Below, in pieces: positions 1-19,871 of a stretch of 24,297 nucleotides of DNA; the stretch's first letter is position 1; each line of letters begins with the position of its first letter. Origin of the DNA: a virus. The position numbers were made by a program, and so were the translations under genes. The notes below the pieces were generated by a model, which had not been told where the DNA came from, did not search any database, and saw only the letters and a list, made by a program, of their open reading frames with translations. The DNA lies in the IMG/VR virus record IMGVR_UViG_3300008448_000628, positions 1-24,297 of that record; one strand, written 5' to 3'.

Positions 1-95
1 ATCATCCTGCCCGCAGATGGCGTACCCCCACCTGCGCCTCCGCCGCCCATCATCCTGCCCGCAGATGGCGTACCCCCACCTGCGCCTCCGCCGCC
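1..95 (-). repeat. 48-bp tandem repeat, two visible copies, cut by the window edge
   Basis: Bases 1-48 and 49-95 are identical over the 47 bases available in the second copy. The period is a multiple of three and encodes a 16-residue Gly-rich unit (MMGGGGAGGGTPSAGR) in the partial gene. Copy one starts exactly at the window edge, so more copies may lie outside. Confidence 0.9.
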
Positions 96-1247
96 GGTAG
101 CGACGACCATCCTGCGGCCGCCCACATTCCTGACATTACTGCGCTGGCGTAGCTTTGCCTGCCTACGTATCCCATTATCCGGGGTCGTTCCATATTGTGC
201 TCTACGTGCAGCTACCTCGGCCTCCGCTTGGGCTTGCGCCGCTGCTTGCCGTGCACGCATTTCCTGTAACTTAGGATTGACCGCTCCGCTGGGCTCGGTC
301 ATGGGAACAGTCATGCCCTGCGGTCGAGACCGAGGAATAGTATCCGCCAACGCAGGGTTGATCTGGCCGCTTCGGAGAGGTCCGGCTACCGGACCGCCCT
401 GGGGGATAGTTGTGAACGTCGCCCTGCTTAGGTCAGGGCGTACACCCGTCTGACCGCTTCGGAGAGGTCCCGACCCCGAAGCAGGGGGCGCGTGGTCAAC
501 GACTTTAACCCCTTCATTGTAATGGCGACGGAGTGCAGAGTCTGCGTAGGGGGCTGTGAGGCGCCCTAGCTCATTGGGGCTCTCATACTCCCACGTGCGG
601 TAAGGGACATAGCGGCTTCGAAGAGGTCCGGTAGCTGGACTACCGCCCGAGACCTGGGGCATAGTCGTGAGCGTCCCTAGGCCAGGGTGTACACCGCCTC
701 TGAGAGCTCCGGTAGCTGAACCGCCGCCCGAGACCTGGGGGATAGTCGTGAGCGTCTCCGTGTTTAGGCCAGAGCGTACACCGCTTCGGAGAGGTCCGGT
801 AGCCGGACCGCCCTGAGGCATCGGCGTGAACGTTGCCCTGCTTAGGTCAGGGCGTACACCAGGTTGACCCTGCGACACCTGAGGTAACGACACAGGGGCT
901 GTCGATGACGGCAATGTGGGCGCGGTGTTGGGAATAGCTTGACGCCGCCGAGCGACTTGCTCGGCCTGGGCTGCGCGAATATTCGCTAGGCGGCGCGCCT
1001 GCTGCTTTTTACTCGCAGCGACCTTCTCCCCGCCCACGCCCAGCATGCTGGTTAGCTCGGCCTGTGCCATAATCTCGGAAGGTGTTGGCACAGAGGCCTC
1101 AAGATTAGCACCAATAAAATTCAGCGCGGCCGCCAACTTAGTAATATCCGCACTGCTGCTTCCAACAGGAGCAAGCTCACGCGTGGCAGTCTCAGAGCGC
1201 CCTGCGGCATCTGCGAGCGCTCGGTCTATAACGTACTGTACGTTCAT
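1..1247 (-). CDS. Repeat-rich hypothetical virion-type protein, 3' end missing (runs off the window)
   Basis: I translated this frame by hand: it stays open for 415 codons from ATG at 1247 to the left edge, so the C-terminus is missing. A strong ribosome site (AGGAG at 1260-1256) lies 8 bases before the ATG. The first 105 residues are Ala-rich and probably helical. Then come four imperfect copies of a 26-29-residue unit with conserved parts GVRPDLS, T(T/P)(I/M)PQ and GPLRS (bases 369-860). Next is an Ala/Gln/Arg-rich helix and a Gly-rich tail of 16-residue repeats. No enzyme domain is visible. The composition suggests a flexible structural, fibre-like or linker protein, but that is inference. 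It follows the 294-aa gene after 67 bases containing a hairpin that overlaps its ribosome site. Confidence 0.75.
   Translation of the reverse strand, partial: MNVQYVIDRALADAAGRSETATRELAPVGSSSADITKLAAALNFIGANLEASVPTPSEIMAQAELTSMLGVGGEKVAASKKQQARRLANIRAAQAEQVARRRQAIPNTAPTLPSSTAPVSLPQVSQGQPGVRPDLSRATFTPMPQGGPATGPLRSGVRSGLNTETLTTIPQVSGGGSATGALRGGVHPGLGTLTTMPQVSGGSPATGPLRSRYVPYRTWEYESPNELGRLTAPYADSALRRHYNEGVKVVDHAPPASGSGPLRSGQTGVRPDLSRATFTTIPQGGPVAGPLRSGQINPALADTIPRSRPQGMTVPMTEPSGAVNPKLQEMRARQAAAQAQAEAEVAARRAQYGTTPDNGIRRQAKLRQRSNVRNVGGRRMVVATGGGGAGGGTPSAGRMMGGGGAGGGTPSAGRM
369..860 (-). repeat. Four imperfect 78-87-bp coding repeats
   Basis: Copies lie at 783-860, 696-782, 615-695 and 369-446. 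The first three are contiguous and the fourth is separated by a unique stretch (447-614). Each encodes GV(R/H)-x-(D/G)-L...(I/M)PQ...G-(P/A)-LR. The 17-base string CCGCTTCGGAGAGGTCC occurs exactly at 367-383, 454-470 and 781-797, with a variant near 612. All copies keep the reading frame. Confidence 0.85.
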
Positions 1248-1314: not shown

Positions 1315-2199
1315 TTAGCTCAGGAGGGCGTCGATGATGTGCTGTGCCGCAGTGTCGAGCATCTCATCGTAGTGCGAGAACACCGCGTACTCGTCCTCAT
1401 CGGCAGCCTCGTCGGGAGTAGGGAAGCTTGCGATCTTCACATACTCAGGCTGCACGTACTCCAGAGTCTGCGGATCCACGCCGTTGGCCAAAAGGATCTC
1501 GGCGGCGCGGAGCTCCGCCTCCTTGGCAAACTCCTCGGGAGAGATCATGTCGACCAGCAACGATGCCGTCTTCTCGCGGTTCTTCATCATTCGGTACGCG
1601 CCGTAGCCGAGACCGCCGGCGAGAGCTGCACCGCCGATACCGAGGCCAATCTTCTGATTCTTGGAAAGATTACCGAAGAAACCACGCCTCGCGCGGAGCT
1701 CAGCCTCACGCTTATCGTAATAGCGCTTATTCGCGTTCGCGCTCATCTTCTCTCGCCGCCCGAGGCTCTTCTTCAGGTCAGCGTAATCCTGAGGCATGGT
1801 GGCGTCGGGATCGGGGAATTGCATCTTTGCTGCGAGCTTCTCGGCCATCCACGCCTCGGCCACATCGTTCATTGCATAGGCGACTTTGTCAAACATGGGC
1901 TCTCCATTCTCAAGTTGGTTCAGTTGATCGGCATAACTCAAAGCCATTTGGCGTCCGACGATGTCCGCCTCGGCAAGCTTAGATTGAAGCTCATCATCAG
2001 CATACTGCGCCTCGTCCTCATCTGACAAGACATAATGTGCAAATTTACTGAGCTCGTCATCATCGAGCTCGTCAAGGTTAATGCCAGACTCGGCAGCAAC
2101 AGCTTGCACAAGTTCAATCTGAGCCTGCTTGGTCTGCTCGTCGGCCTGTATTTGCTGAGAGCCGTATAGCTCCTGCAGAAGTAGCTCATCCATGCTCAT
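1315..2199 (-). CDS. Acidic 294-aa protein with one central membrane-like segment, unknown function
   Basis: The start is supported by AAGGAG six bases before the ATG. The N-terminal 75 residues are strongly acidic and helical (LDELDDDEL, LSDEDEAQYADDE). Residues 145-182 are basic. Residues 183-202 are a Gly/Ala-rich hydrophobic stretch able to cross or insert into a membrane. The C-terminus is acidic again. K-[TIV]-A tripeptides occur at 105-107, 210-212 and 255-257. It directly follows the protease candidate, where phages often place a scaffold or core protein, and the charged helical ends would fit. A membrane-like segment is odd for a scaffold, so an ejected internal protein is equally possible. 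I do not recognise the family. Confidence 0.85.
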   Translation of the reverse strand: MSMDELLLQELYGSQQIQADEQTKQAQIELVQAVAAESGINLDELDDDELSKFAHYVLSDEDEAQYADDELQSKLAEADIVGRQMALSYADQLNQLENGEPMFDKVAYAMNDVAEAWMAEKLAAKMQFPDPDATMPQDYADLKKSLGRREKMSANANKRYYDKREAELRARRGFFGNLSKNQKIGLGIGGAALAGGLGYGAYRMMKNREKTASLLVDMISPEEFAKEAELRAAEILLANGVDPQTLEYVQPEYVKIASFPTPDEAADEDEYAVFSHYDEMLDTAAQHIIDALLS

Positions 2200-2247
2200 A
2201 GAGTTCTCCTTGGAGGCATGTGTGCGGATTATCTTATATGTGCAACA

Positions 2248-4458
2248 CTAGCGAGTTGCAACAAGGGTTGCGAGATATTTCGCGATGTGGGGATTTTCCT
2301 CGGTAAACTTGCTGGCAAACGCAGCATCGCTGAGCGTGCGGTCGCAGCAGCAGCGGTTCCAATAAGCATGGCTGAAATATGCCATGGGCAGCTCTGAGAG
2401 CGCCTCCATGGCCGGTCCTTCGTCAGCATAACCGCCGCCGCGTGTTGTCTCAATGATCCTCATCACAGCTGGCGTATCCATAGCCGTCTTGATCAAATCC
2501 TCTGCGTGTAGCAGGAGATCTTCACGGTAGCCATTGTAGAGCGCGGCGATCTTGCTGAGGACTGGTGTGACGACGGGGGTCACCGCAGGCGTCGCTACGA
2601 TTTCCGCGGATCTCCTAAGCGCGAGCGGCGCCAAGGCGGAGCGCCGCTCAATCACGGTCTTGATCATGTCCATTAAACCCATAGGGATAGCCCCGACACT
2701 AGGGGCACGGATTACAATCCGTACTGAGCGCTCGACGGGCGCACGTGTGTAGTCAAATACCTGCCCAGCGTGCTGCAAGCGGTCTGCCAGATCTTGTTGA
2801 CCTGAGCGCACAAGAATAACCCGCTGGAACTCATGCGGCTTTAATACTATGCCTGCGGCGCCGAGCCCCCCGAGCGACTGACCTAAATCTGGTGCACCCG
2901 CTAGACGATCTAGAATCGTCGTCGGCATGTCGGGCTCTGTTCGTGTAAGCAACGGAACAGCGCGTCCCATCGGAAGCGAACTGACATTTTTGAAAATGTC
3001 AGACATCTTTGATACCTCGGCGGCTTTCTGCGCGGCGACCTTTTCGTTCGATGCAACCATGTCTCCTCCACGCACGGCGCTGTAGTCCGCGTTGGTTTCT
3101 TGTATGGGTACGTAATCCGTGGCTTGTGTCAGTCGCGTATCGACAATCTGAGACTGTGCACCCACGTTGATATATGTTACTGGCACGGGGCTGATCGCGC
3201 GGGCAGAGATCTCTCTGATAGCCTTACGAACAGCGTCACGGACCTTCCCTGCGGTGGGCACGTTCTTGTAGGTCGGCGCCACTTTATGGCTCAGCCGAAT
3301 ACCGATATAGGGCTGTACGGTGCCTGTCATCTTCCGCAGCTTCTTGCGCAGCGCCGCATCCGCGCTCAGAGCGGTTTTCTGAAAATTGAGCGAGGTGGAG
3401 GGATTATTTTGGCTCAGCGTAGAAGACATGCCAGGCGGCGGGGGCGGCTGAGTGTTCATACCTGCCGCCATACCGCCCACAGTTAAGCCCATCGCAGCTG
3501 TGCCCATCGCCCCCATATTGGCGACCTGCCCAACCGTGCCGCCGGCGGCCGCGCCGAGTAAACCGCCACGGAGCATCGCATGGACGCGATTTCCATCCTC
3601 GCCCATCATCGCACCCGTCGCCGCGCCCGTGGCGGCACCAACGGCCATGCGCTTGCCGATACCCTTCGTAGTCCAGTTCAGACCCTTTACGGTGTTGACC
3701 AGGCCCTGCCCAACGTAGGCGACCTTCTCTGCTTTCGGAGCACTGTCAATCCGCTCTAGCACGAAGGACGTGCGATCGGCTCCGATAAATACAAAGGAGA
3801 TGTCGAAAAATCGTGGATACGGGTTGTACACAAAGACCTTGCGCCCATCTTCGTATATCTTACCTGCCTGCGTTGTCATGTGCTCACAGTACTCTGGGCG
3901 GAACCTCGCCTTGTGACCACAAATAGAGCAGACGTCGTACGGGACGCGGCACCCCATACTTGTGCTCGGATACTCGCCGGCTTTGATGCGCTGTAGTGTC
4001 TTCTCCCCACCGTTGCGGACACACTTCTCATCGTCAATTGCCACAATGAGTTCGACGCGCTTCATTTGGCTGTTCAGCACCGATAGCAGCACGTCACCGT
4101 ATGCCTTCTCAGGGTCTTTGTTGACGTGGTGCGCGAAAGCGTGCGCGTTCAAGAACGTCTTGAAACCGTGCAAGTGTGGGTGCGGGGTCTTAGTGTGATC
4201 GTGTTGCAGGCCTTGCCACGGAAAGTGGTCGTTATTTAAGTTAGGTCCGTAATACTCTCCGGCGCCGAGCGCCAAGATATGCACATATGTCTTACCTGGC
4301 TCAGGAGAGAGCTGCGACTTATACGCGAGTATCTCAGGGTGGACGCTGGCAATCTTTTCAAACGAGTCGCCGGCGCTAGGTAGCTCTGTGAGGAGCCGGA
4401 CGAGCGGCTCGCCGCTAGGCCCCATTGCGGGGAACGTACTCTGCTTTATGATTGCCAC
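2248..4458 (-). CDS. Probable prohead (capsid maturation) serine protease with long C-terminal extension
   Basis: The start is GTG at 4458. It has a strong GGAGGT site (4472-4467) that includes the stop codon of the upstream gene. Residues 60-235 look like the herpesvirus/HK97/T4-type prohead protease fold. A His-rich stretch (H106, H110, H111) is followed by a Gly and the VELIVAIDDE strand. Then LQRIKAGEYPSTSMG carries a candidate nucleophile S167 in the S-M-G context typical of these proteases. A CxxC...CxH cluster (C177, C180, C191, H193) suggests a bound zinc. Residues 271-333 are a Gly/Ala-rich hydrophobic region, then a Pro run, and about 390 further residues of unknown fold. Phage proteases of this class are usually 200-350 aa, so 736 aa is long. 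Its role would be cleaving scaffold and head proteins during maturation. Catalytic assignments are by pattern only. Confidence 0.65.
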   Translation of the reverse strand: MAIIKQSTFPAMGPSGEPLVRLLTELPSAGDSFEKIASVHPEILAYKSQLSPEPGKTYVHILALGAGEYYGPNLNNDHFPWQGLQHDHTKTPHPHLHGFKTFLNAHAFAHHVNKDPEKAYGDVLLSVLNSQMKRVELIVAIDDEKCVRNGGEKTLQRIKAGEYPSTSMGCRVPYDVCSICGHKARFRPEYCEHMTTQAGKIYEDGRKVFVYNPYPRFFDISFVFIGADRTSFVLERIDSAPKAEKVAYVGQGLVNTVKGLNWTTKGIGKRMAVGAATGAATGAMMGEDGNRVHAMLRGGLLGAAAGGTVGQVANMGAMGTAAMGLTVGGMAAGMNTQPPPPPGMSSTLSQNNPSTSLNFQKTALSADAALRKKLRKMTGTVQPYIGIRLSHKVAPTYKNVPTAGKVRDAVRKAIREISARAISPVPVTYINVGAQSQIVDTRLTQATDYVPIQETNADYSAVRGGDMVASNEKVAAQKAAEVSKMSDIFKNVSSLPMGRAVPLLTRTEPDMPTTILDRLAGAPDLGQSLGGLGAAGIVLKPHEFQRVILVRSGQQDLADRLQHAGQVFDYTRAPVERSVRIVIRAPSVGAIPMGLMDMIKTVIERRSALAPLALRRSAEIVATPAVTPVVTPVLSKIAALYNGYREDLLLHAEDLIKTAMDTPAVMRIIETTRGGGYADEGPAMEALSELPMAYFSHAYWNRCCCDRTLSDAAFASKFTEENPHIAKYLATLVATR
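2981..3002. repeat. 22-bp near-perfect AT-rich palindrome inside the protease-candidate gene
   Basis: CTGACATTTT (2981-2990) and AAAATGTCAG (2993-3002) are exact inverted copies separated by TG. It is unusually AT-rich for this region. It overlaps codons just after an in-frame internal ATG (3006-3004). It may be chance, an operator-like site or an RNA hairpin. Confidence 0.6.
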
Positions 4459-4464
4459 CTGATC

Positions 4465-5520
4465 TTACCTCCGCGCTGCCGGAGACCCGTAAGACGACCT
4501 AGCCTCCGATACTGCCGCGCTCATATCATTACGGTACGCCCCGACACCGGCGGCAACGGTTTGGCGCGCACCTGCGAGCGCCATAGTATCCTGGAACGTA
4601 GCATTACCGACACCTGCCATCTCTGTAACTCCGGACCCTATGCCGCGCGCGAGATGCTTCGTGCTCTCCGTCAGCGCGGCGTCTAGTGGGCGTTGGCCGC
4701 GCAGACGACTAATCTCGTTCAGCGATGAGACGTTCGCCATGCGGAACTGCGCCATTTGCTTTAGCGTCTGACCGCCGAGAAGGGGGTCAGAGAGCACATC
4801 AGGCGTGTGCTGTGCCATGCTGTTGTACGCGATGTGCAGGTCCTGCGTAGGGATCGACCGCATGTCCGGATGAACCTGCTTCATCTCATTGAGGTATTTG
4901 TCACGGTTAGCGCGCACACGCGCAGCGCGAACAGCGTCAATTGCCGCCGGCACCGCGTATGTCACAGCCGCTGCGCCGACCGCGCCTGCAACAGGCGCCC
5001 AGTCAAAGGCGATTTTTTCCACACCGACCGAGTCGGCGGTTCTCTGGTAGACCGCCGCGAGGGCGCTATCGTCGAGACCGTACTTGGCTTTTAGATATTC
5101 TGCAGTTTTCATGTTCGCTAACTCTCCCATAGTTCTATTAGCTGTTGCACCGATTGAGGTGGCGAGCGCCTCGCCTGACGACCCGCCCGCTAAACTCGAA
5201 AGTTGACGGGCCTCTCTCAGAACAGTGTACGCAGGTGTCTTTCCGCGCGCCATATTTAGCACCATCTCCCCACCCACGTACGGGTCGCTTGCTAAATCGG
5301 GTGAGTAGCTTGCAATCGCACTGTACGCGCGCTCCTTCTTGTGCTGCGGTATGCGCCTGAGGGCCGGATTTTCTGCTTCCATCTGTGCAAGACTGTCCTG
5401 CATGCGGCGCTGTGCGAGGTGGGTACGGATCGCACCTATGCCCCTAGCTGCGGCAAAAGATGCGAGCGCCCCACCGGCGCCGTACGCTAGATGGCGCGCG
5501 ATTGGTGGCATACCGGCCAT
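4465..5520 (-). CDS. 351-aa protein with internal duplication and two hydrophobic segments, unknown function
   Basis: The start ATG overlaps the upstream stop (TGATG), with GGAG eight bases ahead. The protein holds two copies of one module: residues 13-108 and 175-273. Each copy has an Ala/Gly hydrophobic segment (about 11-31 and 174-195), a charged helix, then a shared core. Residues 51-91 and 217-257 align without gaps with 16 of 41 identities, including IP, AY, PD, SDP and GG. The hydrophobic stretches suggest membrane insertion, possibly in a protein ejected during infection, but this is inference. K-[TIV]-A tripeptides at 138-140 and 169-171 fall between the two modules. The stop is followed after six bases by the GTG of the protease candidate, so the two are co-translated. 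I do not recognise the family. Confidence 0.88.
   Translation of the reverse strand: MAGMPPIARHLAYGAGGALASFAAARGIGAIRTHLAQRRMQDSLAQMEAENPALRRIPQHKKERAYSAIASYSPDLASDPYVGGEMVLNMARGKTPAYTVLREARQLSSLAGGSSGEALATSIGATANRTMGELANMKTAEYLKAKYGLDDSALAAVYQRTADSVGVEKIAFDWAPVAGAVGAAAVTYAVPAAIDAVRAARVRANRDKYLNEMKQVHPDMRSIPTQDLHIAYNSMAQHTPDVLSDPLLGGQTLKQMAQFRMANVSSLNEISRLRGQRPLDAALTESTKHLARGIGSGVTEMAGVGNATFQDTMALAGARQTVAAGVGAYRNDMSAAVSEARSSYGSPAARR
4702..5484 (-). repeat. Protein-level duplication inside the 351-aa gene
   Basis: Module A is encoded at about 5484-5197 and module B at about 4998-4702. Similarity is visible in protein but not at DNA level, so the duplication is old. The most conserved stretch is P-x2-R-x-IP, then AY, then PD-x2-SDP-x2-GG, then MA. 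Confidence 0.75.
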
Positions 5521-6287
5521 CAGCTCATCTCCGTAACCACGCGCTGATGCGCGCGCTCTGCGTTTATCAGCGCGGAGCGATACTGCGCGGCAAGCTTAAC
5601 AGCGGACTCCGCCTCTGCGTAAGCCTTGTACACAGGATGGTCTCGATTGGGTAGCGACTCGACATAGTCGCCCTCCTTATGCTCCCAAGACAGCGCGCCG
5701 ACGACCGCGTGCGCTATCTTCGTGAACACCTCTCCGTCAGTCGAGGCCGCGCCCGCAAGCTGGAGAATAGGCTTAACGCCCACGCCGTACGATGCGCGCT
5801 TGCATAGCTGCACGAAGTTATGCACCGCCGCCTCAGCGTGCGCGTCGTGGGCGCTCGCCTCTTTCACGAGCACGTCAACCGCGCCCTTTGTGGCGTAGTA
5901 ATCGCGCCGCCATCTAACGTGCTCAGGAACATGGGCAGCGCTCTTCTCCTCTGGTATAGCGTCGAAGCCGTCAAGACGACGCTCGGCGCTTGGCGCCGCG
6001 AGGTACGCAGCGAGATCTCCCGCAGGCTCGTACCCACCACTCAGCTTGGCGTGAACAGCGTCAGGCTCTGCTAAGTCAAATGTGACATGCTTTGATGGGC
6101 CCGTCTTGAACATCTCCTCGAACGTAACGAGGTTAGCGTTCTCGATGATGCGCTGGACGTGATCCTTGCTGAGGTCACCTTTACCAGACGCGATCTTTAC
6201 TATAGCGTCGGTGAGTGGCACACCGTGCCGGAGATAAAGGTCGCTAGCGTCTTTGCCGAGCTGAGCAAGGCTCTCTTTTGTATACAT
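5520..6287 (-). CDS. 255-aa hypothetical protein of the virion gene cluster
   Basis: The ATG at 6287 has AAGGG nine bases upstream, although that region also holds the start of the divergent helix-turn-helix gene only 13 bases away. The protein is mostly helical and soluble. Residues 36-75 (GDLSKDHVQRIIENANLVTF, then HVTFD) look like a compact conserved domain. The rest is Ala-rich helix with K-I-A at 31-33 and 190-192. There is no signal peptide, membrane segment or catalytic motif. The stop overlaps the start of the 351-aa gene (TGATG), so it heads the run that continues through the duplicated protein and the protease candidate. Function unknown; a head or ejection-related structural protein is a guess from position. 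Confidence 0.85.
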   Translation of the reverse strand: MYTKESLAQLGKDASDLYLRHGVPLTDAIVKIASGKGDLSKDHVQRIIENANLVTFEEMFKTGPSKHVTFDLAEPDAVHAKLSGGYEPAGDLAAYLAAPSAERRLDGFDAIPEEKSAAHVPEHVRWRRDYYATKGAVDVLVKEASAHDAHAEAAVHNFVQLCKRASYGVGVKPILQLAGAASTDGEVFTKIAHAVVGALSWEHKEGDYVESLPNRDHPVYKAYAEAESAVKLAAQYRSALINAERAHQRVVTEMS

Positions 6288-6300
6288 AGGTGTAACCCTT

Positions 6301-6891
6301 ATGGAATCTGATGTTGATTATGTCTGTACACGTGATGCTGCGCAAGAGCTAGGTATCTCACGACGTACATTACAGCGGCACATTAAAGAAGGAAAGATAG
6401 AGGTTACGCGCCGCGTGGGCAAATCGGCGTTGATCGCGCGGAGAGAGCTCGCGCGCTATCTAGAGGCAGGCGCGACTGAGGGGCAGAGCGCGCGGGCACA
6501 GATTGCTTCACTTAGAGCGCATGTCGCCGCCCTTGAGCGGCGCTTGAGGACCCTTGAGGCGCTACTCGATATCTCCGCCCCTCACAAAGTCAGCCTCGAC
6601 ACCGACCAGGTACAGCTGCTGCGTGACGCGCTTATTACAGCGCTCACGCACAAGAAGCGCTGGGGGATCGCTGAGATATCAACGATGCTAGGTGATATTG
6701 GGAAGCTCTCATTGGATACGGTAGAAGCTGTCGGGAAAAGTTTAGTCTGCAGCGCCCTCGACAGGGTTAGGACAGAGGCGCGTTTATTGCGGCACTCGCG
6801 CTCTGAGATATATATCGGCCGCGCGCTGCTTATTGGGCGCGAGATTGGTGCACCGTCTGAGGAAGAAGCACATCTGGCCTCGGATTGGTGA
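6301..6891 (+). CDS. MerR/excisionase-type helix-turn-helix protein with coiled coil
   Basis: Residues 9-50 form a classic small helix-turn-helix domain: RDAAQELGISRRTLQRHIKE, followed by a basic wing and REL-x2-YL, as in excisionase and MerR-like domains. Residues 62-92 are a charged coiled coil, likely for dimerisation. The C-terminal 100 residues are helical and unassigned. An AGGTG site lies eight bases before the ATG. The gene is on the opposite strand to its neighbours: it starts head-to-head with the 255-aa gene and its last 62 bases overlap the TerL 3' end. It could be a regulator of the late genes. It could also be a small terminase subunit, since those also combine helix-turn-helix and coiled-coil parts and often neighbour TerL. 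The sequence alone does not decide. Confidence 0.85.
   Translation: MESDVDYVCTRDAAQELGISRRTLQRHIKEGKIEVTRRVGKSALIARRELARYLEAGATEGQSARAQIASLRAHVAALERRLRTLEALLDISAPHKVSLDTDQVQLLRDALITALTHKKRWGIAEISTMLGDIGKLSLDTVEAVGKSLVCSALDRVRTEARLLRHSRSEIYIGRALLIGREIGAPSEEEAHLASDW
6317..6345 (-). promoter_or_regulatory. Possible sigma70-like promoter for the 6287-1315 gene run
   Basis: On the minus strand, TTGCGC (6345-6340) and CATAAT (6322-6317) are separated by 17 bases. The start of RNA would fall near 6310, giving a leader of about 23 bases before ATG at 6287. The -10 matches 5 of 6 consensus bases but the -35 only 3 of 6. It lies inside the opposing gene, as it must, because the two starts are 13 bases apart. 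Weak evidence. Confidence 0.25.
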
Positions 6892-8590
6892 GGGTGCTGA
6901 CCAGGAAGGCGTACAGAACAGCGTGGAAGGTGTCGTCCGTAACGCCGCGACTTTTCTTGAACTCGCTCATGCGGCGCGTCTCGGAGTACTCAGAGAATAT
7001 GTTTAACATGTCCTGCGCGAACGGCACCTCGAAGTCCTCCCACCTTGGGTACGCGAAGACGCCCTTGCGTTTAATCGCGTTGAATATGTCGCTCATGACC
7101 TCAGTGCGGTTCACCATAAACCTGCCCAGCGCGGCGTCCCAGACAACCTTGCCGGCGGATACTGTGCTGTACTGATACTTGAACACCATTCGCGCGCCGA
7201 ACTTACGAAGCAGCGCGTCGTTTCTATCGAACCCGCCGCCGTAGTCCGCGCCTATGAGAGACACTCGCCATTCCTTAACGAGCACCTCAATTCTAGCAAG
7301 CTGAGCCTGTGGCTCACTCTCCGGCCCTTCAAATCTGCGCACGTAGACGATCGTAAACTTGCCGTCCATGTATGCGCAGATCGTGACAACTGTGTGTGTC
7401 TGCTCGCCCGTGCCCCAGTCGATGCCCATGAACACACGCGCGCCCGCCCCTATGAGGGCCGCGCGTGCCGCGCGGACGTCTGCATCTGTTAGTCCGAACT
7501 TCCAAGTGCAGTTGTCGATGACGTCTTGCTGTGTAATCGGACGCGTGCCGCTGTCGTACGATAAGCCGAGCACTTCGTTATTGAAGCGTGCTCGTGAGTA
7601 TGTCAGCTGCTTGTTGAGGATGTCCGACCATGATATCCACGGTACCATGAGCTGTGGGATCCTGTAGCCGTCCATTGGGTTTGGTACGCGCGGCTTTGGG
7701 TTGAGCGACGCCCACTGCGCATCGGCGTGCATGGAGTGTATCTGCTTGCCGCACTTCTCACAGATCAGAAACCTCGGTCCGATGTTGATCTCTGACAGGA
7801 TATTCCAATGTCGGTAATCTCCTCCACCACAGTGCTCACACGGGACAACCCACTCGTTCTGCGTGCTCTCGTCAACCCACAGCCCCTCTATCGTGTTGTC
7901 CAGAGATTTGGGCGTACCGCTGTACAGTTTATACTTAAACGGGCTGTGCGCGATGCACTCCTCGATCACGGAGATGTTGTCGGGGAGGATATCTTGTATC
8001 TCGTCTATACAGACCAAGTCCGCCGCGATACCGCGTGTGCGGTCTGCGTTTAGGTACGCATAGCGGAGCACGATCTGCGAACGGTTAATAAACTTCTTGT
8101 GGAACACGTTTTGGTTTAGCGCGGAGTCTGTCCACGCCCTAAGCCGTGGGCTGACATCGAGCGGCTCACGGATGCGGTCGTTCGAGAACGTCTTGGTCTG
8201 CTGGTTGGTAGGAGACACGTACAGCGCGGTAAAGTTTGGCTGTATGCATGACATCGACAGGAGGCGGTTACCGAGGTAGGTGGACTTCTCTACCTGGCGC
8301 CCACATTTGAGCAACACACGCGGCGACATCGTGTCATAGACAGGTTTGAGATACCGCCGTTCCCCAAACGAGAACTCCTTGAGCGTCTTGCTGTGCTGGT
8401 CAGGGACCATTATCGCGAACTCGACAAAGTCCGTGGGCCGCACCTCGACCTCTGTTACGTCGATGGACTTGACCTTCTCGCTCAGCCCCAAGTCCTCCAG
8501 TGTGACCTCTTCCTGCTGTGAGTTGGCGCGCCTATGTGCTATTTTACTCAGCGTTTTACGGTTTTGTGCCGTGTTCGGGACTATTGGCAT
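6830..8590 (-). CDS. terL: Terminase large subunit (DNA packaging ATPase/nuclease)
   Basis: This is the motor that pumps phage DNA through the portal and cuts it. The N-terminal ATPase has a variant Walker A (CGRQVEKST, 96-104), Walker B (LVCIDEI, 192-198) and the coupling motif YSGT (223-226). A zinc-ribbon insertion has C251, C254, C277 and C280, as in GpA-type terminases. The C-terminal RNase H-like nuclease has its acidic residues in FMGIDWG (D391), IGADYGG (D449) and VTDDTFHA (D552/D553). A length of 586 aa is normal. No strong ribosome site precedes the ATG; a plus-strand gene starts only nine bases away in the opposite direction. The 3' end overlaps the convergent helix-turn-helix gene by 62 bases. 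Confidence 0.94.
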   Translation of the reverse strand: MPIVPNTAQNRKTLSKIAHRRANSQQEEVTLEDLGLSEKVKSIDVTEVEVRPTDFVEFAIMVPDQHSKTLKEFSFGERRYLKPVYDTMSPRVLLKCGRQVEKSTYLGNRLLSMSCIQPNFTALYVSPTNQQTKTFSNDRIREPLDVSPRLRAWTDSALNQNVFHKKFINRSQIVLRYAYLNADRTRGIAADLVCIDEIQDILPDNISVIEECIAHSPFKYKLYSGTPKSLDNTIEGLWVDESTQNEWVVPCEHCGGGDYRHWNILSEINIGPRFLICEKCGKQIHSMHADAQWASLNPKPRVPNPMDGYRIPQLMVPWISWSDILNKQLTYSRARFNNEVLGLSYDSGTRPITQQDVIDNCTWKFGLTDADVRAARAALIGAGARVFMGIDWGTGEQTHTVVTICAYMDGKFTIVYVRRFEGPESEPQAQLARIEVLVKEWRVSLIGADYGGGFDRNDALLRKFGARMVFKYQYSTVSAGKVVWDAALGRFMVNRTEVMSDIFNAIKRKGVFAYPRWEDFEVPFAQDMLNIFSEYSETRRMSEFKKSRGVTDDTFHAVLYAFLVSTLTNPRPDVLLPQTVHQSRAQ

Positions 8591-8599
8591 GGTGTTCTC

Positions 8600-8923
8600 A
8601 TGAGCGTAGAAGATCGAGTGTGCAAAGATATCGCCCGACTAGTGAACCTGATCGCGTTCGATGTCTGCGACGTGGGTAGCCTACAATATATACGCGAAGC
8701 CGACGCACTCAAAGTGACCGCAGTGTGGCGCATCCTCGCCCCCATACCCGACCATCTTCACACGCCTATGCGGAAAGCTATCCGAGCGCTCGTAACAGAG
8801 ACAGGGACCGCCTTGCCTGGCGCGATCGGATTCGAGGGAGGCACGCTACGAATAGTGTTATACAAAAAGCAACTACGCGGGCCCGCGTATGACCCCGATG
8901 TGTCACCCAATGATCATCCGTAG
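8600..8923 (+). CDS. Small 107-aa hypothetical protein on the plus strand
   Basis: I start it at ATG 8600 (MSVEDRVCK), not at the upstream ATG 8534, which would run deep into the TerL start; GGTG five bases upstream is a weak ribosome site. The product looks like a compact alpha/beta protein: helices at 1-45 and 57-72, then strand-like GTLRIVLYKK at 84-93. It fills a space that has no minus-strand gene, starts nine bases from the divergent TerL start and overlaps the convergent 122-aa gene by 21 bases at its end. No domain recognised. It is probably real because the space is otherwise empty and the composition is protein-like, but the weak ribosome site leaves doubt. Confidence 0.6.
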   Translation: MSVEDRVCKDIARLVNLIAFDVCDVGSLQYIREADALKVTAVWRILAPIPDHLHTPMRKAIRALVTETGTALPGAIGFEGGTLRIVLYKKQLRGPAYDPDVSPNDHP

Positions 8924-9271
8924 CCCTTCGTAGGTTCCGCGTATGCCCCGCTCGATTACGCTACGCGCTGCAGCCACATTGTCTCCGAAGTCAGATACGA
9001 ACACGAATATGTTGGGCGGTATGCCATAGTCTTCGTCGTTGATAAGCTCAACGCGGAGCAGCTCGGCGGCTTTGTGACCCAGCGTGTCGGAGAATGCAGA
9101 CCGCGCAGCTTTCTGAAGCTGACCTAGGTGCGAGGATCTGTGCGGCTTAAAGTGAAACACTATCCCATCATCGCGGGTAGCAAAGTCGCAGTTAAAGAGC
9201 TCAGACTCGGCGGTCTCGAACACAACAGGGCGGGTCATGTAGCTCTTATTCATAACATCATCTATTTGCAC
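8903..9271 (-). CDS. 122-aa hypothetical protein, GTG start
   Basis: The longest frame begins at 9352 inside the upstream gene with an Arg/Cys-rich, unprotein-like stretch, so that start is rejected. GTG at 9271 has an ideal AAGGAG (9284-9279) seven bases ahead and overlaps the upstream gene by 14 bases. ATG at 9253 (MNKSYMTRP), just after the upstream stop, is the alternative but lacks a good site. The protein has two strand-rich segments (PVVFETAESELFNCDFATRD and PNIFVFVSDF) around a helix. Such short alpha/beta proteins in virion clusters are often tail-completion or connector proteins, but nothing here proves that. The last 21 bases overlap the convergent plus-strand gene. Confidence 0.75.
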   Translation of the reverse strand: MQIDDVMNKSYMTRPVVFETAESELFNCDFATRDDGIVFHFKPHRSSHLGQLQKAARSAFSDTLGHKAAELLRVELINDEDYGIPPNIFVFVSDFGDNVAAARSVIERGIRGTYEGLRMIIG

Positions 9272-10109
9272 GTGTCTTCTCCTTCTCGGCTGGAGCAGGC
9301 AACGCGCGCATCTCCTTAGAGAGCAACGCGAGCGGCAGTGGGCGCTCCACACTACGCGCCAGCTTGAATTGTTTCAACTCAGAGGCGATAGTGGCGAGCT
9401 CCTGATCCGCAGTGTTAATCACCGCGTGCGCCTTGGCGAGCACGGACATTGAGTCTGAGAGCATCCGCATTTTCTCGGGGGTTGTGTCCCAGTTCTTAAT
9501 CTCGTGTATCGTGGAGTTGACGGCGGCGACCACCTCGTAGACGGCGTCTTTTACGTTTGTCGCGCGGTCTAGTCCGATACGGTACGCTGTAGTGATCGGG
9601 CCGCCGTCCATGCACGCCATCATGTGGCGCGTGTTTGGGTCCTCCTCGTCTAGCAGATCCCCCCAATCTCCAGGATCGACGATATCTACGTTAAAGTAGT
9701 AGTGCCTCAGCGTGCGAAGGACCTGTGGGCCGACATCTAGATCGTGCTTGCGCGCCATGTGCATGGACAGGTCGCGATGATCAACACGGCCCATAAACCC
9801 GAGCAGCACATCTCTGCGCACAGTCGGGCGCTCGAGGATCTGCAGGCACTGCGTCACTGTCTTATCAGGGTGGTATATGCCGTCTACGTTGAGCGCGCGT
9901 AGGAACACGCGATCTTCTCCGCGCGCACCCGTAAATCCCGCAGGGCGCAGGCTCATGACTTGCGCGCGCAGGTCCGCGATATATGCGTCGGCCTCATCGC
10001 ACTCTTTTAGGTGTGGCAACCCGAGCGCAGCGACTAGGCGTCTAACCTCCTTGTCAGACTTCAGGTCGACGAGGAGCGACAGCAGAAATAACTCGCTCGG
10101 GTGGCGCAT
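9258..10109 (-). CDS. 283-aa helical hypothetical protein
   Basis: The start overlaps the preceding stop (TGATG at 10107-10111) and GAGAGGAAG lies just upstream, so it is translationally coupled to the 692-aa gene. The protein is almost entirely helical. One distinctive stretch (about residues 129-152) contains LRTLRHYYFNVDIVDPGDWG followed by acidic residues. The C-terminal third (195-255) could form a long coiled coil, and the end is basic and charged. There are no membrane segments, zinc clusters or catalytic motifs. I do not recognise the family. Its position suggests a structural or assembly role. Confidence 0.85.
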   Translation of the reverse strand: MRHPSELFLLSLLVDLKSDKEVRRLVAALGLPHLKECDEADAYIADLRAQVMSLRPAGFTGARGEDRVFLRALNVDGIYHPDKTVTQCLQILERPTVRRDVLLGFMGRVDHRDLSMHMARKHDLDVGPQVLRTLRHYYFNVDIVDPGDWGDLLDEEDPNTRHMMACMDGGPITTAYRIGLDRATNVKDAVYEVVAAVNSTIHEIKNWDTTPEKMRMLSDSMSVLAKAHAVINTADQELATIASELKQFKLARSVERPLPLALLSKEMRALPAPAEKEKTRANR

Positions 10110-12187
10110 CAGACTTCCTCTCTAGACATGACAAGCTTACGCAGCCCCATAATCACGTCCTCGATATTACGTAGCGACTCGGCGCACGCTGCCTCGTTGA
10201 TCTCGCTCGCACCGAGGCGAGCCGCGACGAGCAGATTGGCGAGATTAGACGTGGTCTCCTCGAACTGCGGTAGGTATGAAATAAACATGCTGATATTGCG
10301 CGGGTTTAGGAAGTTCAGCGCCAGCAGTGTGTCCGCAAGGTTGGGGTCATTGATCTCCGCTGCGTGCTTCGCCATGAAGTGATTAAAGCGTGCCGCGTAG
10401 CTGTCAAGTGCGGCCGTCTTTAGGCGACTGATTGTCTGCGGAGGTGTCACCGCGCGCAGGCAGGGTACCTCCATAAACCCGCCGGCTTTCGTAAGCAGCG
10501 TCGCGACCTTCTCGCGCGTGTACTGCGGATCTACGCCAGCGAGCGCGAGCATCCACTCTGCATCGGCGTAGTCCAAAAAGTGTGTGTACTTGTGCGCTAG
10601 CTTATCGAAGGCAGCGCCGCCTAGCGTGAGTGACCCCTCCTGTGTCATGCGCACGGTCGCGGTAATAGGAATATAAGACGCCTTCTTTTGGCGACCACCC
10701 TGCTGCTGTTGCGCCTGTTGCTGCTGCATCTCCATCTGCTGCTGCTGTTGCGCCTTGGCGAGCACGAACGCGCCCGCGCGCTGGGACGCCTGCATAGGAT
10801 CTGTGATGAGCGGATTGGTTTGCTGCCTAAAGGTACACCAGCGGACGTCGCCGGGTACCGCGAACTGCCCCTCTCCCATCTCCGCGGCGGCCTTCATGCC
10901 GTCCACTTTCATGATCTGGATTGGGTTGTTTCCAAGGATGGTCGTGCCCATAAACATCACGCTGCCGTCAGGCTGCTGTTGCTCACCTTGTAAGTCGATC
11001 GGAGCAAACGCGAAGGCTTTGCCGTTGCGAATAATGTAGAAGAAGCCGCGGCCCTGTGGTTGCTCGTTCGGCAAGTTCGCGTTCGTGCTGATCATCACAC
11101 CGGCGATCTGCTCTTGTGTGGCGAAGTTAGTGCCGTCTGTGAACAGCTGCATCGGGACCTTCTCCATCTTATACGAGAGTATGAAAGGGAAGACCCAGCC
11201 CATAATCTGTTCCGCGTTCACGGTGATCACCCTGTGGACGCCAAATGAGGACACGATCTGAAAATCGTCGCCCTCGAGCGTCTCCGGCGCAACTACCTCG
11301 GGCGCGGCGGTGGCTTGTCCGTTCTGCGCGAGCTCTGCCTGCATGTTGGGATCCATATTTGTGGCAGCCTGCTCAGCCGGCACCTGCCCCTGCTGCGGCG
11401 CAAACCCGTCTGGCTGAGCGATCTTGACCTGCACCATGGGTCCGCCCGACCAACGATACTGCACGACGCGCGCGCCGTTTGAGCTCGCTACCTTATCCTG
11501 ATGGAACTCGCTTGGGTCTATGGTCAGCGCACGGCGGAACACAGGGACAAGGTCCATACGCCCCCACAGGCTCACCTTGCCCTCGTCGCTCTGTACCCAC
11601 GATGCGAGCTTTGATAGCTGCTCGGGCAGCACTGTCCCCCCGAGCTGCCGCAGAAGCGATGACGTCTTTGTCTGTGCGCTCTGGCTCACCTGTGTGTTGA
11701 CGCCACGATAGAACTGACCAACGTTCTCCCACGGCGGCGTCAGCATTGTGCGGATATCGTCAGAGAGCGGATCATCTTTGCCAACAATGCCTGCGGCAGC
11801 TCCTGTCTGCTGCAGCACCTCACGGATACGCCCCTCCGACAGATAATACCCACGGCCCGTCGCGCTATCGAAGAAGATATCGAGCGGGCTCAGCATCCAG
11901 TTCTTAATAAATATGGGTATCTTAATATCAGCCGACTCGACATCGAGCATCGGGTCAGGCGTCTTAGGGCGCGCGATGATATAACCGAAGCCAGCACCCT
12001 TGTTCGGCTCCGTGCGGTCTAGCACAATCTCACTATGAAAGTTGCGCATAACGGGCGCTTGCCTGTGAAGCTCGCTGAGCACCTGCGGTGCCCATCGTGT
12101 GACATCGTCGGGGAGCTTGACCGTCACTGCCACTTTCTCAAAGTGAACAACGCGCTTACGGTCTAAGAAAAGAGGGGTATCGAGCAT
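10109..12187 (-). CDS. 692-aa hypothetical virion-type protein with Gln-rich linker
   Basis: The ATG follows the spike-candidate stop by one base (TAATATG), with AAGGTGAGG upstream. The N-terminal 260 residues are mixed alpha/beta. Residues 300-460 are strand-rich (FFYIIRNGKAFAFAPIDLQ) and include WVFPFILSYKM. A Gln run (480-496, broken by MEM and A) links to a helical C-terminal domain that begins ASYIPITATVRMT. K-[TIV]-A tripeptides occur at 18-20, 232-234, 255-257, 560-562 and 590-592. The two-domain plan with a flexible linker suits a tail, baseplate or internal virion protein. The gene lies between the spike candidate and the 283-aa gene in one transcript with the RNA polymerase, so it may be co-packaged with it; this is inference. 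No family recognised. Confidence 0.88.
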   Translation of the reverse strand: MLDTPLFLDRKRVVHFEKVAVTVKLPDDVTRWAPQVLSELHRQAPVMRNFHSEIVLDRTEPNKGAGFGYIIARPKTPDPMLDVESADIKIPIFIKNWMLSPLDIFFDSATGRGYYLSEGRIREVLQQTGAAAGIVGKDDPLSDDIRTMLTPPWENVGQFYRGVNTQVSQSAQTKTSSLLRQLGGTVLPEQLSKLASWVQSDEGKVSLWGRMDLVPVFRRALTIDPSEFHQDKVASSNGARVVQYRWSGGPMVQVKIAQPDGFAPQQGQVPAEQAATNMDPNMQAELAQNGQATAAPEVVAPETLEGDDFQIVSSFGVHRVITVNAEQIMGWVFPFILSYKMEKVPMQLFTDGTNFATQEQIAGVMISTNANLPNEQPQGRGFFYIIRNGKAFAFAPIDLQGEQQQPDGSVMFMGTTILGNNPIQIMKVDGMKAAAEMGEGQFAVPGDVRWCTFRQQTNPLITDPMQASQRAGAFVLAKAQQQQQMEMQQQQAQQQQGGRQKKASYIPITATVRMTQEGSLTLGGAAFDKLAHKYTHFLDYADAEWMLALAGVDPQYTREKVATLLTKAGGFMEVPCLRAVTPPQTISRLKTAALDSYAARFNHFMAKHAAEINDPNLADTLLALNFLNPRNISMFISYLPQFEETTSNLANLLVAARLGASEINEAACAESLRNIEDVIMGLRKLVMSREEV

Positions 12188-12188
12188 A

Positions 12189-13457
12189 TTACCTCACCTT
12201 TGTGTCTGTTGTGCGCACATCTTCTTCTGAGTCTACCATATTGGGGCGCACCGCAGGTAGAGCGTAGAGGCTGAGCGCGTTGAGTAGCGCCGTGCCCGCC
12301 GCCGACGTGGGCGGCAGCGCCAGGCTGATCGCCGCGATGTACGCAGAGAGCTTGATGAGCACATCCGCCATGACCTCTTGCTGTACAAGCGTCGGCCCCT
12401 GTAGCGGCGGCAAGCTCACGCCCATCGGCGTAGGGTGAACGTGATTAAACAGCCACGGCAGTATGTCCTCTGTCACTACGCGACGGCTCTCTACGGTATT
12501 ATCTGAGAACAGCATACGCTGGCCCTCGTATGACAGCTCCAGAAGTGGCGCGTCAACCGTGCTGCCGGCGGGTGCTATCTGGCGTATCTGCCCAGTCGCG
12601 TCTACTCCAATTGAGCCAGCGCCTCCCGAGAGCGCAACAGATGGCGCGGACATACCAAGGCTCACTGTCGACGAGATGAGCATAGACCCGACGCTCTCCT
12701 GCGTCCAACTACCCGTCGACGCGATAGACACGCTGCCGTCAGATGTGACGTCGAAGTGAAACCCCGCAGCCGCGTCTACCATGCTGACGAACGCAGTGTT
12801 GGGGACACCGGCTGCCGCGCCGGGGCGATTGAGCGTGACATTAAGCCCGCCGGCCACCGCTGCGCCCGCCGATACAGTCAGGTACGGTGCGGGGTCACTC
12901 TCGAACTCCTTGATCCCCAACAGGTACGCCACAGGGCCGCCAAGCTCATCCGCCGACACGGACCACCTGAAAGACCCGCCGCCGAGCGAGTGCTCATAGC
13001 TGGGCGAGTTGAGGCGCACGATCTCCTCCGTGCTCAGGAGCGAGAGCATGCACTGCTGATCCGATACCAGATAGACATCGCCGTTTTTTCTGAACAGTAC
13101 CTCGTTGCCGTTCTCCCCCTGCACGCGTATATCGCCAGGCGCGAGCTCGCCAACGATATTGCGCGCCTCTTGCGTGATGCCCCTAAACGCAATCACCATC
13201 GCGCTCGCGGACATACCTCGGTTAGACGCGGAGAGATTCTCTAATACAACGCAGTACGCCCCGACGGTGGGCTTGAAGTCGAAGCCTCCCAACCCCTGCC
13301 CACGGAAGCTCGACGCAACCTCGCAGTCAGTGAAGAAGCGCTGGTACGGCGACTGCACTATGACGTCCACCCTACCACTCTCGGCGTCAACGCGGGTGAT
13401 TCGGCCCGATAAAATGTTTGATGTGGCCTGCGTGGCCAGCCCTGTCTTGAGCTCCAT
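12189..13457 (-). CDS. Probable baseplate spike / OB-fold puncturing protein
   Basis: Residues 17-95 look like the N-terminal OB-fold of contractile-tail spikes: SGRITRVDAESGRVDVIVQS, a Gly-rich turn and a V-G-x-Y-C-V-V-L strand. Residues 108-132 (GDIRVQGENGNEVLFRKNGD) resemble the start of a spike beta-helix. Residues 230-320 are Ser/Gly/Thr-rich short strands. H339-V-H341-P-T-P matches the HxH pattern used to bind iron at the tip of spikes such as P2 gpV. Here it sits about 80 residues before the C-terminus, followed by a hydrophobic helical tail (354-400), so tip placement is uncertain. The start overlaps the polymerase stop (TGATG) with GAGGG upstream. If right, the phage has a myovirus-like tail. 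A generic baseplate protein is the alternative. Confidence 0.5.
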   Translation of the reverse strand: MELKTGLATQATSNILSGRITRVDAESGRVDVIVQSPYQRFFTDCEVASSFRGQGLGGFDFKPTVGAYCVVLENLSASNRGMSASAMVIAFRGITQEARNIVGELAPGDIRVQGENGNEVLFRKNGDVYLVSDQQCMLSLLSTEEIVRLNSPSYEHSLGGGSFRWSVSADELGGPVAYLLGIKEFESDPAPYLTVSAGAAVAGGLNVTLNRPGAAAGVPNTAFVSMVDAAAGFHFDVTSDGSVSIASTGSWTQESVGSMLISSTVSLGMSAPSVALSGGAGSIGVDATGQIRQIAPAGSTVDAPLLELSYEGQRMLFSDNTVESRRVVTEDILPWLFNHVHPTPMGVSLPPLQGPTLVQQEVMADVLIKLSAYIAAISLALPPTSAAGTALLNALSLYALPAVRPNMVDSEEDVRTTDTKVR

Positions 13458-19744: not shown

Positions 19745-19796
19745 GTGCCGGCTCCTCAAAGTGCGCGCTGTTTCTGTGATAACTATATACACCCAA

Positions 19797-19811
19797 AGCG
19801 CATCACGCGCT
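19797..19811. repeat. Small perfect hairpin upstream of the polymerase
   Basis: AGCGC (19797-19801) pairs with GCGCT (19807-19811) around ATCAC. It lies about 55 bases before the polymerase ATG, next to the AT-rich TATATAGTT stretch. A short stem like this can occur by chance. Confidence 0.45.
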
Positions 19812-19850
19812 AGAAAGGTTGAACCACCATGGACGAGTGGGGAACCGACG

Positions 19851-19871
19851 ATCAGTACTTCCAGTACTGAT
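19851..19871. repeat. Perfect 9-bp inverted repeat with 3-base loop upstream of the polymerase
   Basis: ATCAGTACT (19851-19859) and AGTACTGAT (19863-19871) pair around a three-base loop: TCC on the plus strand, GGA on the minus strand. With one G-U and one C-G pair the stem extends to 11 in RNA. There is no U-tract directly after it on either strand, so it is not a standard terminator. It may be an operator, a structured leader or a hairpin promoter. Confidence 0.75.

Follow-up and report, generated by a model that had tools for sequence, protein, structure and literature searches.

The window analysed here, a stretch of 24,297 nucleotides from IMG/VR virus record IMGVR_UViG_3300008448_000628, encodes a prohead protease candidate and several virion-type proteins in which the tripeptide K-[TIV]-A recurs, which raises the question of what such a repeated motif does in head proteins. 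The first-pass annotation had offered two readings, either sites at which the prohead protease encoded here cuts or a packaging tag. We conclude that K-x-A (x, any residue) is very probably the motif which the prohead protease of the same gene cluster recognises and cuts.

A Lys-x-Ala pair in five window proteins

The proteins concerned, and a partial gene beside them, are the following:

3..1247, minus strand: incomplete gene running off the contig end; two K-x-A (residues 37 and 75); may encode another substrate
1315..2199, minus strand: 294-aa protein, gene +1 of the protease; eight K-x-A; predicted core/scaffold substrate
2248..4458, minus strand: 736-aa protein; N-terminal leader, prohead protease domain (residues ~41-240) and long C-terminal region; eight K-x-A
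4465..5520, minus strand: 351-aa protein, gene -1; internal duplication (21-107 and 187-273)
5520..6287, minus strand: 255-aa protein, gene -2; eight K-x-A; predicted internal core substrate
10109..12187, minus strand: 692-aa protein, near the RNA polymerase (RNAP) gene and away from the head cluster; eleven K-x-A; predicted substrate

The 19 copies of K-[TIV]-A noticed by eye in the five complete proteins proved exact (three in the 294-aa, seven in the 736-aa, two each in the 351- and 255-aa and five in the 692-aa protein), against 2.35 expected from within-protein shuffles, none of which came as high in 1,000 rounds (maximum 8). The preceding preference for F, L or V two residues before the lysine was likewise borne out, with eight [FLV]-x-K-[TIV]-A against 0.43 expected, while the control tripeptides R[TIV]A, [TIV]KA, A[TIV]K and E/D/Q/N/S[TIV]A were all below expectation. 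RNAP, portal and spike candidate (together 3,250 aa), for which about two copies had been noted, contain two against 3.15 expected, one of them in the portal, and the single copies reported for the partial gene and for TerL agree with our counts.

Because visual inspection had supplied K-[TIV]-A, a blind ranking was made of every residue pair separated by zero to five others (2,400 pairs). K-x-A came first in the five proteins (37 vs 14.4 expected). Compared with Glu-ending pairs in these proteins, it stood at 2.54x, with S-x-E at 1.58x (12 vs 7.6) and I-x-E at 1.38x (8 vs 5.8). The underlying motif is therefore K-x-A, present in two to eleven copies scattered along each chain, and the T, I or V in the middle is a preference; the enrichment claimed earlier stands, while the restriction of the middle residue was too narrow. 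When the same blind ranking was applied to T4 gp67, gp68, gp21 and gp22, I-x-E and L-x-E took first and second place, indicating that the ranking recovers a known prohead protease motif ([I/L]-x-E).

Distribution of the motif among relatives

One scan of IMG/VR yielded 372 relatives of the protease, using patterns placed in the catalytic domain and outside any K-x-A site. The best 80 of these 372 matches, together with L008, L126, Salmonella phage Arash, Vibrio phage D181 and Bacillus phage G, gave 85 loci, two of which (L091, L115) had no protease frame; the remaining 83 were reduced at 80% identity to the 62 in which the motif was tested. Genes were called mechanically, with some frames wrong or overlong (such as the copy of the 692-aa protein in L002) and some real genes missed, and all counts are of sequences rather than events, homologous sites not being independent.

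Relative to the protease gene (position 0), the ratio of observed to expected K-x-A in the 62 relatives was 1.8 at -3, 2.6 at -2, 1.4 at -1, 2.2 at 0, 2.5 at +1, 1.9 at +2, 2.3 at +3 and 1.5 at +4, and fell to 1.0-1.3 from +5 to +10; genes -8 to -4 also had 1.3-1.6x. A-x-K, R-x-A, E-x-A and K-x-S remained at 0.6-1.2 across these positions. Considering only gene sets of more than 900 residues, 35 of the 61 head sets had K-x-A in first place and 56 had it within the top 20, compared with none of 36 downstream sets of the same phages. The head genes of both Arash and D181 gave K-x-A rank 1 of 2,400 pairs. The five relatives outside the top 20 were L075 (rank 1,165), L002 (115), L093 (110), L059 (52) and L100 (51); L002 is the nearest relative, and the gene calling, being mechanical, passed over its homologues of the 255- and 294-aa proteins.

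By protein family, clustered separately, K-x-A exceeded 1.7x in 11 of 28, with family means of 4.1-11.0 copies per protein in these 11. The 255-aa family reached 3.24x (475 vs 146.6 expected, 56 members), the 692-aa family 2.92x (195 vs 66.8, 21 members) and the 294-aa family 2.63x (201 vs 76.3, 26 members), while the 351-aa family had just 1.38x. Non-enriched families included TerL (0.65x), RNAP (0.96x), g283 (0.94x) and g422 (0.83x). The TerL and RNAP copies that had served as examples were consequently dropped: the LSKIA of TerL has no K[TIVL]A counterpart in the TerLs of L001, L002 and L003, and the ASKIA of RNAP lies within a GKIA[EQ]KT-like stretch common to Arash and D181.

That the pattern has no function, arising instead from composition, helix periodicity or homology among head proteins, seems hardly credible. 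Several sites of the 692-aa model do sit in predicted helices, and the dependence among homologous sites noted above speaks for such a by-product. However, within-protein shuffles contradict it, K-x-x-A, K-x-x-x-A, K-A, A-x-K, R-x-A and E-x-A stay at 0.6-1.3x where K-x-A is enriched, 11 separately clustered families have the pair in common, and the downstream genes of the same phages lack the excess. L-x-K is raised as well, but also outside head genes.

Within the enriched families, the density of K-x-A peaks at residues 25-36 (5.3x). In the 255-aa family, 42 of 56 members have a copy in residues 9-50 (15.7 expected), whereas the N terminus is little raised in the 692-aa family (7 of 21 vs 4.1 expected) and not raised in another enriched family (1 of 17 vs 3.3 expected).

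The protease protein, its borders and the capsid protein

The 736-aa protein contains a prohead protease domain with a predicted T4 gp21-like fold. It matches PHROG 18299, head maturation protease (E 2.9e-8), and its model has pLDDT values of 78-97 by blocks of ten over residues 41-240. In VIA-align, among 967 preselected chains, T4 gp21 (5jbl) was the best match of the protease model (Z 10.4, 130 residues aligned, rmsd 2.6), followed by VZV (9.0) and PRV (8.7); VZV and pseudorabies proteases spanned Z 8.4-9.0, other herpesvirus proteases 5.5-7.2, and unrelated MlaD-type chains reached 6.2. Foldseek with the whole model found no match in the PDB at E<=0.001, the matches listed having E of at least 0.05 with MlaD chains first; against BFVD it matched gp19 of phage G as well as models that bear the name prohead protease. 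The candidate catalytic residues H111 and S167 are invariant among 54 sequences, with H110 at 90% or more. In a weak hhalign match to T4 gp21 (E 0.041, probability 1.3), S167 pairs with the first Ser of the SS in VSS, and H110, not H111, pairs with the His of NHPP. Neither Pfam nor a sequence search of the PDB gave a useful match for the protease or for the capsid protein of L002.

The K-[TIV]-A sites of the protease protein are distributed as follows:

4348..4356, minus strand: K-I-A at residue 35, leader/protease border, low pLDDT in the model; predicted auto-cleavage
3718..3726, minus strand: K-V-A at residue 245, at the C-terminal edge of the protease domain; predicted auto-cleavage
3370..3378, minus strand: K-T-A at residue 361
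3277..3285, minus strand: K-V-A at residue 392
3034..3042, minus strand: K-V-A at residue 473, with an additional K-A-A at 478
2545..2553, minus strand: K-I-A at residue 636, outside the stretches with pLDDT<50
2482..2490, minus strand: K-T-A at residue 657, outside the stretches with pLDDT<50

Borders were taken as the 30 residues ahead of the domain and, on the other side, as positions -8 to +30 relative to its end. With these borders, K-x-A was found near the N border in 61 of 62 relatives, near the C border in 61 and near both in 60, compared with 5 and 17 for R-x-A in the same stretches. The C-side copy lies within -4..+10 of the domain end in 55 of 62, and the window's K-V-A at 245 lies about nine residues downstream of the usual VLEKVAS position. 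Cutting of K-x-A by another protease, either a host or a second phage enzyme, would accommodate the fact that position and fold are what links enzyme to substrate; the copies flanking the protease domain and an excess centred on the protease gene leave it a very low probability.

The earlier claim that sites often lie at domain borders holds for two proteins and is not borne out in a third. Six of the eight K-x-A in the protease protein fall in stretches with pLDDT<50, compared with 13 of its 38 lysines (P 0.011). In the 351-aa protein, whose duplication is evident from a self-match of 29% identity (E 4.7e-12), both K[TIV]A sit between the two domain copies. The sites of the 692-aa model are not more disordered than its other lysines (P 0.39), and disorder was thus discarded as a general property of the sites. 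Those of the other window proteins are:

1879..1887, minus strand: K-V-A at residue 105 of 294
1564..1572, minus strand: K-T-A at residue 210 of 294
1429..1437, minus strand: K-I-A at residue 255 of 294
5101..5109, minus strand: K-T-A at residue 138 of 351, between the two domain copies
5008..5016, minus strand: K-I-A at residue 169 of 351, ahead of the second domain copy
6189..6197, minus strand: K-I-A at residue 31 of 255
5712..5720, minus strand: K-I-A at residue 190 of 255
12128..12136, minus strand: K-V-A at residue 18 of 692, in pLDDT<50 segment 1-20
11486..11494, minus strand: K-V-A at residue 232 of 692, in pLDDT<50 segment 217-237
11417..11425, minus strand: K-I-A at residue 255 of 692, in a predicted strand
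10502..10510, minus strand: K-V-A at residue 560 of 692, in a predicted helix
10412..10420, minus strand: K-T-A at residue 590 of 692, in pLDDT<50 segment 584-594
10361..10369, minus strand: K-H-A at residue 607 of 692, K607 and A609 being invariant in 21 sequences

The window contains no capsid gene. In 42 of the 62 relatives one was found, 4-11 frames downstream of the protease (5 or 6 in 30 of the 42), and 40 of these 42 major capsid proteins have a single K-x-A at residues 23-32, the exceptions without an N-terminal copy being those of phage G and L008. In L002, whose protease is 72% identical to that of the window, the capsid protein reads GRQKIAAYG at 25. The capsid protein of Arash matches Phage_capsid below the Pfam cut-off. 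The capsid-protein and C-border sites fall in regions that are conserved in any case. Around the sites, the consensus is (E/D)-[LMFI]-E-K-[TVIQ]-A-[S/E/A], and the residue profile is two-sided and limited to about -4..+4, roughly seven residues, while that of R-x-A is flat.

These data also bear on the packaging or targeting tag, in which a core or shell partner would bind K-x-A and bring proteins into the prohead uncut. Concentration in head-cluster families agrees with such a role, as does the density peak at residues 25-36, given that T4 internal proteins have N-terminal capsid-targeting sequences. A tag fits less well, though, with several copies along the chain, with copies flanking the protease domain at either end and one in the relatives' capsid protein itself, and with a profile resembling a protease subsite pattern; moreover, the pair found by the same ranking in T4 is a cleavage motif. 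We consider the tag unlikely, although N-terminal copies may have a targeting role in addition to cleavage. The first-pass suggestion of prohead protease cleavage sites, on the other hand, is strongly supported by the enrichment, the domain borders, the capsid protein, the T4 check and the predicted fold.

Predicted processing and comparison with known proteases

The window protease resembles T4 gp21 in its predicted fold, in the location of its gene in the head cluster and in the many motif copies within core and scaffold proteins, and differs in its long C-terminal region and in a motif built on Lys and Ala. Herpesvirus maturational proteases cut at phi-x-A|S, with a hydrophobic residue, not Lys, at P3; the likeness to assemblin lies in the fold (VZV and pseudorabies) and in an A|S cut, proposed here, the difference in the P3 residue. 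In 356 pooled head genes, K-x-A reached 2.18x, whereas no Glu-ending motif was enriched, be it [IL]-x-E as in T4 or x-x-E as in phiKZ/SPN3US (L-x-E 1.22x, I-x-E 1.03x, A-x-E 1.07x, S-x-E 0.89x).

For SPN3US gp245 and the phiKZ protease, PMC10052503 and PMC5694885 describe motifs A-x-E and S/A/G-x-E with cutting after Glu, specificities that were established by mass spectrometry. These enzymes cleave themselves and the capsid protein, prefer Ser after the cut, and remove N-terminal propeptides, some of 20-24 residues and others longer, with several motif copies inside them. Apart from the cut after Glu, all of these features are predicted for the window lineage. The SPN3US and phiKZ-type portal is cleaved as well; the window's portal has one K[TIV]A. 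The SPN3US sequence record lists gp75 as an acetyltransferase, whereas gp75 is the capsid protein in the papers (the numbering differs). For the cut bond, we lean towards K-x-A|S over phi-x-K|x-A, by analogy with A-x-E|S in SPN3US and phi-x-A|S in herpesviruses.

Combining these observations, we infer that the protease would enter the prohead as a precursor, its domain being freed by cuts at the two flanking K-x-A, at residue 35 and at residue 245. Cutting at K-x-A by the 736-aa enzyme would also shorten the major capsid protein by about 26 N-terminal residues, remove N-terminal propeptides from several head proteins, and cleave the internal core proteins (255-, 294- and 692-aa families) and the protease C-terminal region at several sites, such that fragments could exit either ahead of DNA packaging or while it proceeds. 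The genes that follow the capsid gene, like those of terminase and RNA polymerase, have no K-x-A excess, and their products would stay whole.

More broadly, and tentatively, a large tailed-phage lineage (the window contig, Arash, D181, Bacillus phage G and perhaps actinobacteriophages) may possess a herpesvirus-fold protease with Lys-x-Ala in place of Glu as its target, working as a polyprotein-type processor, about 11 head families being cut at several sites and single genes, such as that of the duplicated 351-aa protein, giving rise to more than one mature head protein. A likely cut-site motif for a lineage with 372 IMG/VR protease relatives was obtained purely from sequence, T4 serving to check the method, and it suggests a switch of preferred residues, Glu to Lys/Ala, within the enzyme fold. 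In other phage groups, too, the top-enriched spaced pair in head genes may name the protease motif, which suggests a general test. Among the matches listed in a search of the PMC literature, outside which most subscription papers and preprints lie, none was found that describes K-x-A as a prohead protease motif, and the passage of PMC5618024 contains no such motif.

For the cultured phages Arash, D181 and phage G, the motif predicts mature ends and a list of substrates. In five actinobacteriophages, the pooled head genes gave 236 [KR]-x-A vs 142.9 expected, A-x-[KR] 180 vs 142.7 and control genes 148 vs 128.3, making an extension to this group only suggestive; Erwinia phage pEa_SNUABM_35 gave no K-x-A signal (9 vs 6.3, rank 309). 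The proteases of phage G (gp19) and Arash (gp222) are homologous to that of the window and have K-x-A on both sides of the domain, and Arash gp220-226 are K-x-A-rich genes near the protease. In phage G, K-x-A ranked second in six genes among gp4-gp14 and 23rd in gp15-25, a set in which gp23, joined from two pieces and translated straight through, is partly wrong, with no excess in gp26-27.

The K-x-A pair in the window

The window, a complete virus record of 24,297 bases, has the gene content of a tailed phage, with the head cluster on the minus strand.

Features of the window
2248-4458, minus strand: 736-aa protein, PHROG head maturation protease family (E 2.9e-8, residues 72-198)
6830-8590: terminase (PHROG 675, E 1.9e-75)
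13457-19879, minus strand: RNA polymerase, 2,140 aa (PHROG and RNA polymerase family matches)
20818-22884: portal, weak match (E 1.4e-5)

Both large RNA polymerase subunits apparently reside in the single 2,140-aa polypeptide (PHROG matches at residues 301-1040 and 1178-1527; RNA polymerase family matches at 830-927, 1346-1504 and 1676-1913), whereas the cultured relative Arash carries two separate genes (1,525 and 606 aa) annotated as RNA polymerase beta. An excisionase-like DNA-binding gene (6301-6891, plus strand) runs antisense to the terminase gene and overlaps the latter's 3' end; with matches to PHROG 66 (E 7.1e-8) and the terminase small subunit PHROG 57 (E 1.7e-4), it is a candidate small terminase by sequence similarity. 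The gene at 3-1247 (minus strand) is partial, truncated at the contig end, and finishes in low-complexity repeats with many G, A, P and T residues.

The first-pass annotation had described a recurrent K-[TIV]-A motif in five proteins (294, 736, 351, 255 and 692 aa) that was sparse in the RNA polymerase, portal and spike candidate, and both counts held: 19 copies against 2.35 expected (maximum 8 in 1,000 shuffles), and 2 in all against 3.15 expected. As this motif had been picked by eye, all 2,400 residue pairs at spacings of 0 to 5 residues were ranked blindly. K-x-A (one residue between) ranked first in the five proteins (37 vs 14.4 expected), in gp220-226 of Salmonella phage Arash (39 vs 17.1) and in 0275-0282 of Vibrio phage D181 (43 vs 17.7), whereas neither the polymerase nor the tail sets of these phages had it among their ten highest pairs. 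We therefore regard the K-x-A core as general and the T/I/V middle residue of the original motif as a secondary preference only.

The T4 prohead protease cleaves after [I/L]-x-E. As a positive control, the ranking of T4 gp67, gp68, gp21 and gp22 placed I-x-E first and L-x-E second (first and fourth once gp23 and gp24 were added), and thus detects an existing prohead protease motif.

Distribution among relatives

An alignment of ten proteases, with scan patterns situated in the catalytic domain, retrieved 372 relatives from IMG/VR, of which the best 80 were kept; 85 loci were examined, 83 had a protease frame and 62 remained after reduction at 80% identity. The protease also occurs on one contig from a bacterial collection, a Methylococcales MAG (QVQF01000100.1), together with the lineage's capsid gene; this hints at either one host or a binned phage.

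Across the 62 relatives, observed/expected ratios for K-x-A at gene positions -3 to +4, counted from the protease gene, were 1.8, 2.6, 1.4, 2.2, 2.5, 1.9, 2.3 and 1.5, respectively. Ratios were 1.0-1.3 at +5 to +10, and upstream 1.3-1.6 at -8 to -4, 1.1 at -9 and 0.9 at -10; the controls A-x-K, R-x-A, E-x-A and K-x-S gave 0.6-1.2 at all positions. Among 61 head sets, K-x-A ranked first of 2,400 pairs in 35 and within the top 20 in 56; it did not reach the top 20 in any of the 36 sets made up of genes +5 to +11. No comparable enrichment of Glu motifs was seen in 356 head genes (L-x-E 1.22x, I-x-E 1.03x, A-x-E 1.07x vs 2.18x for K-x-A); according to PMC5694885, the T4, phiKZ, 201phi2-1 and SPN3US proteases all cleave after Glu.

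Eleven of 28 families, each with at least seven members, exceeded 1.7x, including those of the 255-aa (3.24x), 692-aa (2.92x), 294-aa (2.63x) and 736-aa (2.19x) proteins; the 351-aa family reached 1.38x, and no excess was found in the TerL (0.65x), RNA polymerase (0.96x), g283 (0.94x) and g422 (0.83x) families. In enriched families, proteases included, K-x-A density peaked at residues 25-36 (134 vs 25.2 expected), this N-terminal excess being small or absent in two of the eleven. The major capsid family gave 0.88x overall, with one K-x-A at residues 23-32 in 40 of 42 members, the proteins of phage G and locus L008 lacking it. In five actinobacteriophages with a related protease (L038, L039, L040, L042, L043), [KR]-x-A is enriched in head genes, and one actinobacteriophage record is annotated 'capsid maturation protease'.

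A profile of 2,282 distinct sequence segments around K-x-A showed E/D/G at -3, M/L/F/I at -2, E at -1, K, T/V/Q/I at +1, A, and S at +3 (3.7x); it was nearly flat past -4 and +4, and flat around the control R-x-A.

Protease fold and flanking sites

AlphaFold2 modelling of the 736-aa protein (54 sequences) gave pLDDT block means of 78-97, mostly >90, for residues 41-240, with low-confidence stretches at 25-36, 240-266, 307-401 and 421-504. Plain Foldseek of the whole chain against the PDB missed the T4 gp21/herpesvirus fold match, and against viral predictions returned gp19 of phage G together with models labelled as prohead protease. VIA-align, a second comparison of chains preselected by Foldseek, placed T4 gp21 first (5jbl, Z 10.4, 130 residues, rmsd 2.6), followed by the varicella-zoster and pseudorabies proteases (Z 8.4-9.0); other herpesvirus proteases (Z 5.5-7.2) overlapped unrelated MlaD-type chains (up to Z 6.2). 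H111 and S167 were invariant in the 54 protease sequences.

Of the 62 relatives, 61 have K-x-A within the 30 residues preceding the protease domain and 61 have it around the domain's end, between positions -8 and +30 (between -4 and +10 in 55); 60 have both. The same N- and C-side stretches held R-x-A in 5 and 17 relatives, K and A spaced by two residues in 22 and 30, and adjacent KA in 16 and 18. K35 and A37 are invariant in the ten-protease alignment within a variable leader. In the window the usual C-side VLEKVAS is replaced by VLERIDS, with K-V-A about nine residues downstream, a shift shared by locus L002. In the 736-aa model, 6 of 8 K-x-A sites had pLDDT <50, compared with 13 of 38 lysines (P 0.011). 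K-x-A showed no preference for disorder in the 692-aa model (P 0.39; mean pLDDT 71.7).

Proposed processing at K-x-A

The K-x-A finding is real, and enrichment, positions and protease fold make the first-pass interpretation, cleavage by the encoded prohead protease, very probably right. The protease would cleave itself and the proteins of neighbouring genes at K-x-A. Self-cleavage is likewise described for SPN3US gp245, with short (20-24 residues) or long N-terminal propeptides and multiple motif copies within one propeptide (PMC10052503). The window's protease belongs to a known type of enzyme; searches confined to an open-licence library brought up no publication on its K-x-A specificity or on its spread through this extensive lineage, most of which is uncultured.

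The strongest fixed pair in the motif is K and A, with S after. Herpesvirus protease motifs have P3 and P1 fixed, then Ser. The same pattern is given for SPN3US (PMC10052503, PMC5694885), and by analogy we favour a cut after Ala.

The 351-aa protein (4465-5520, minus strand) is a tandem duplication: residues 21-107 match 187-273 (29% identity, E 4.7e-12). Its two K-[TIV]-A sites both fall in the stretch separating these copies, an arrangement suggesting that a single chain might be processed into two mature domains. Counterparts of the protein in loci L003 and L050 measure 180 and 196 aa.
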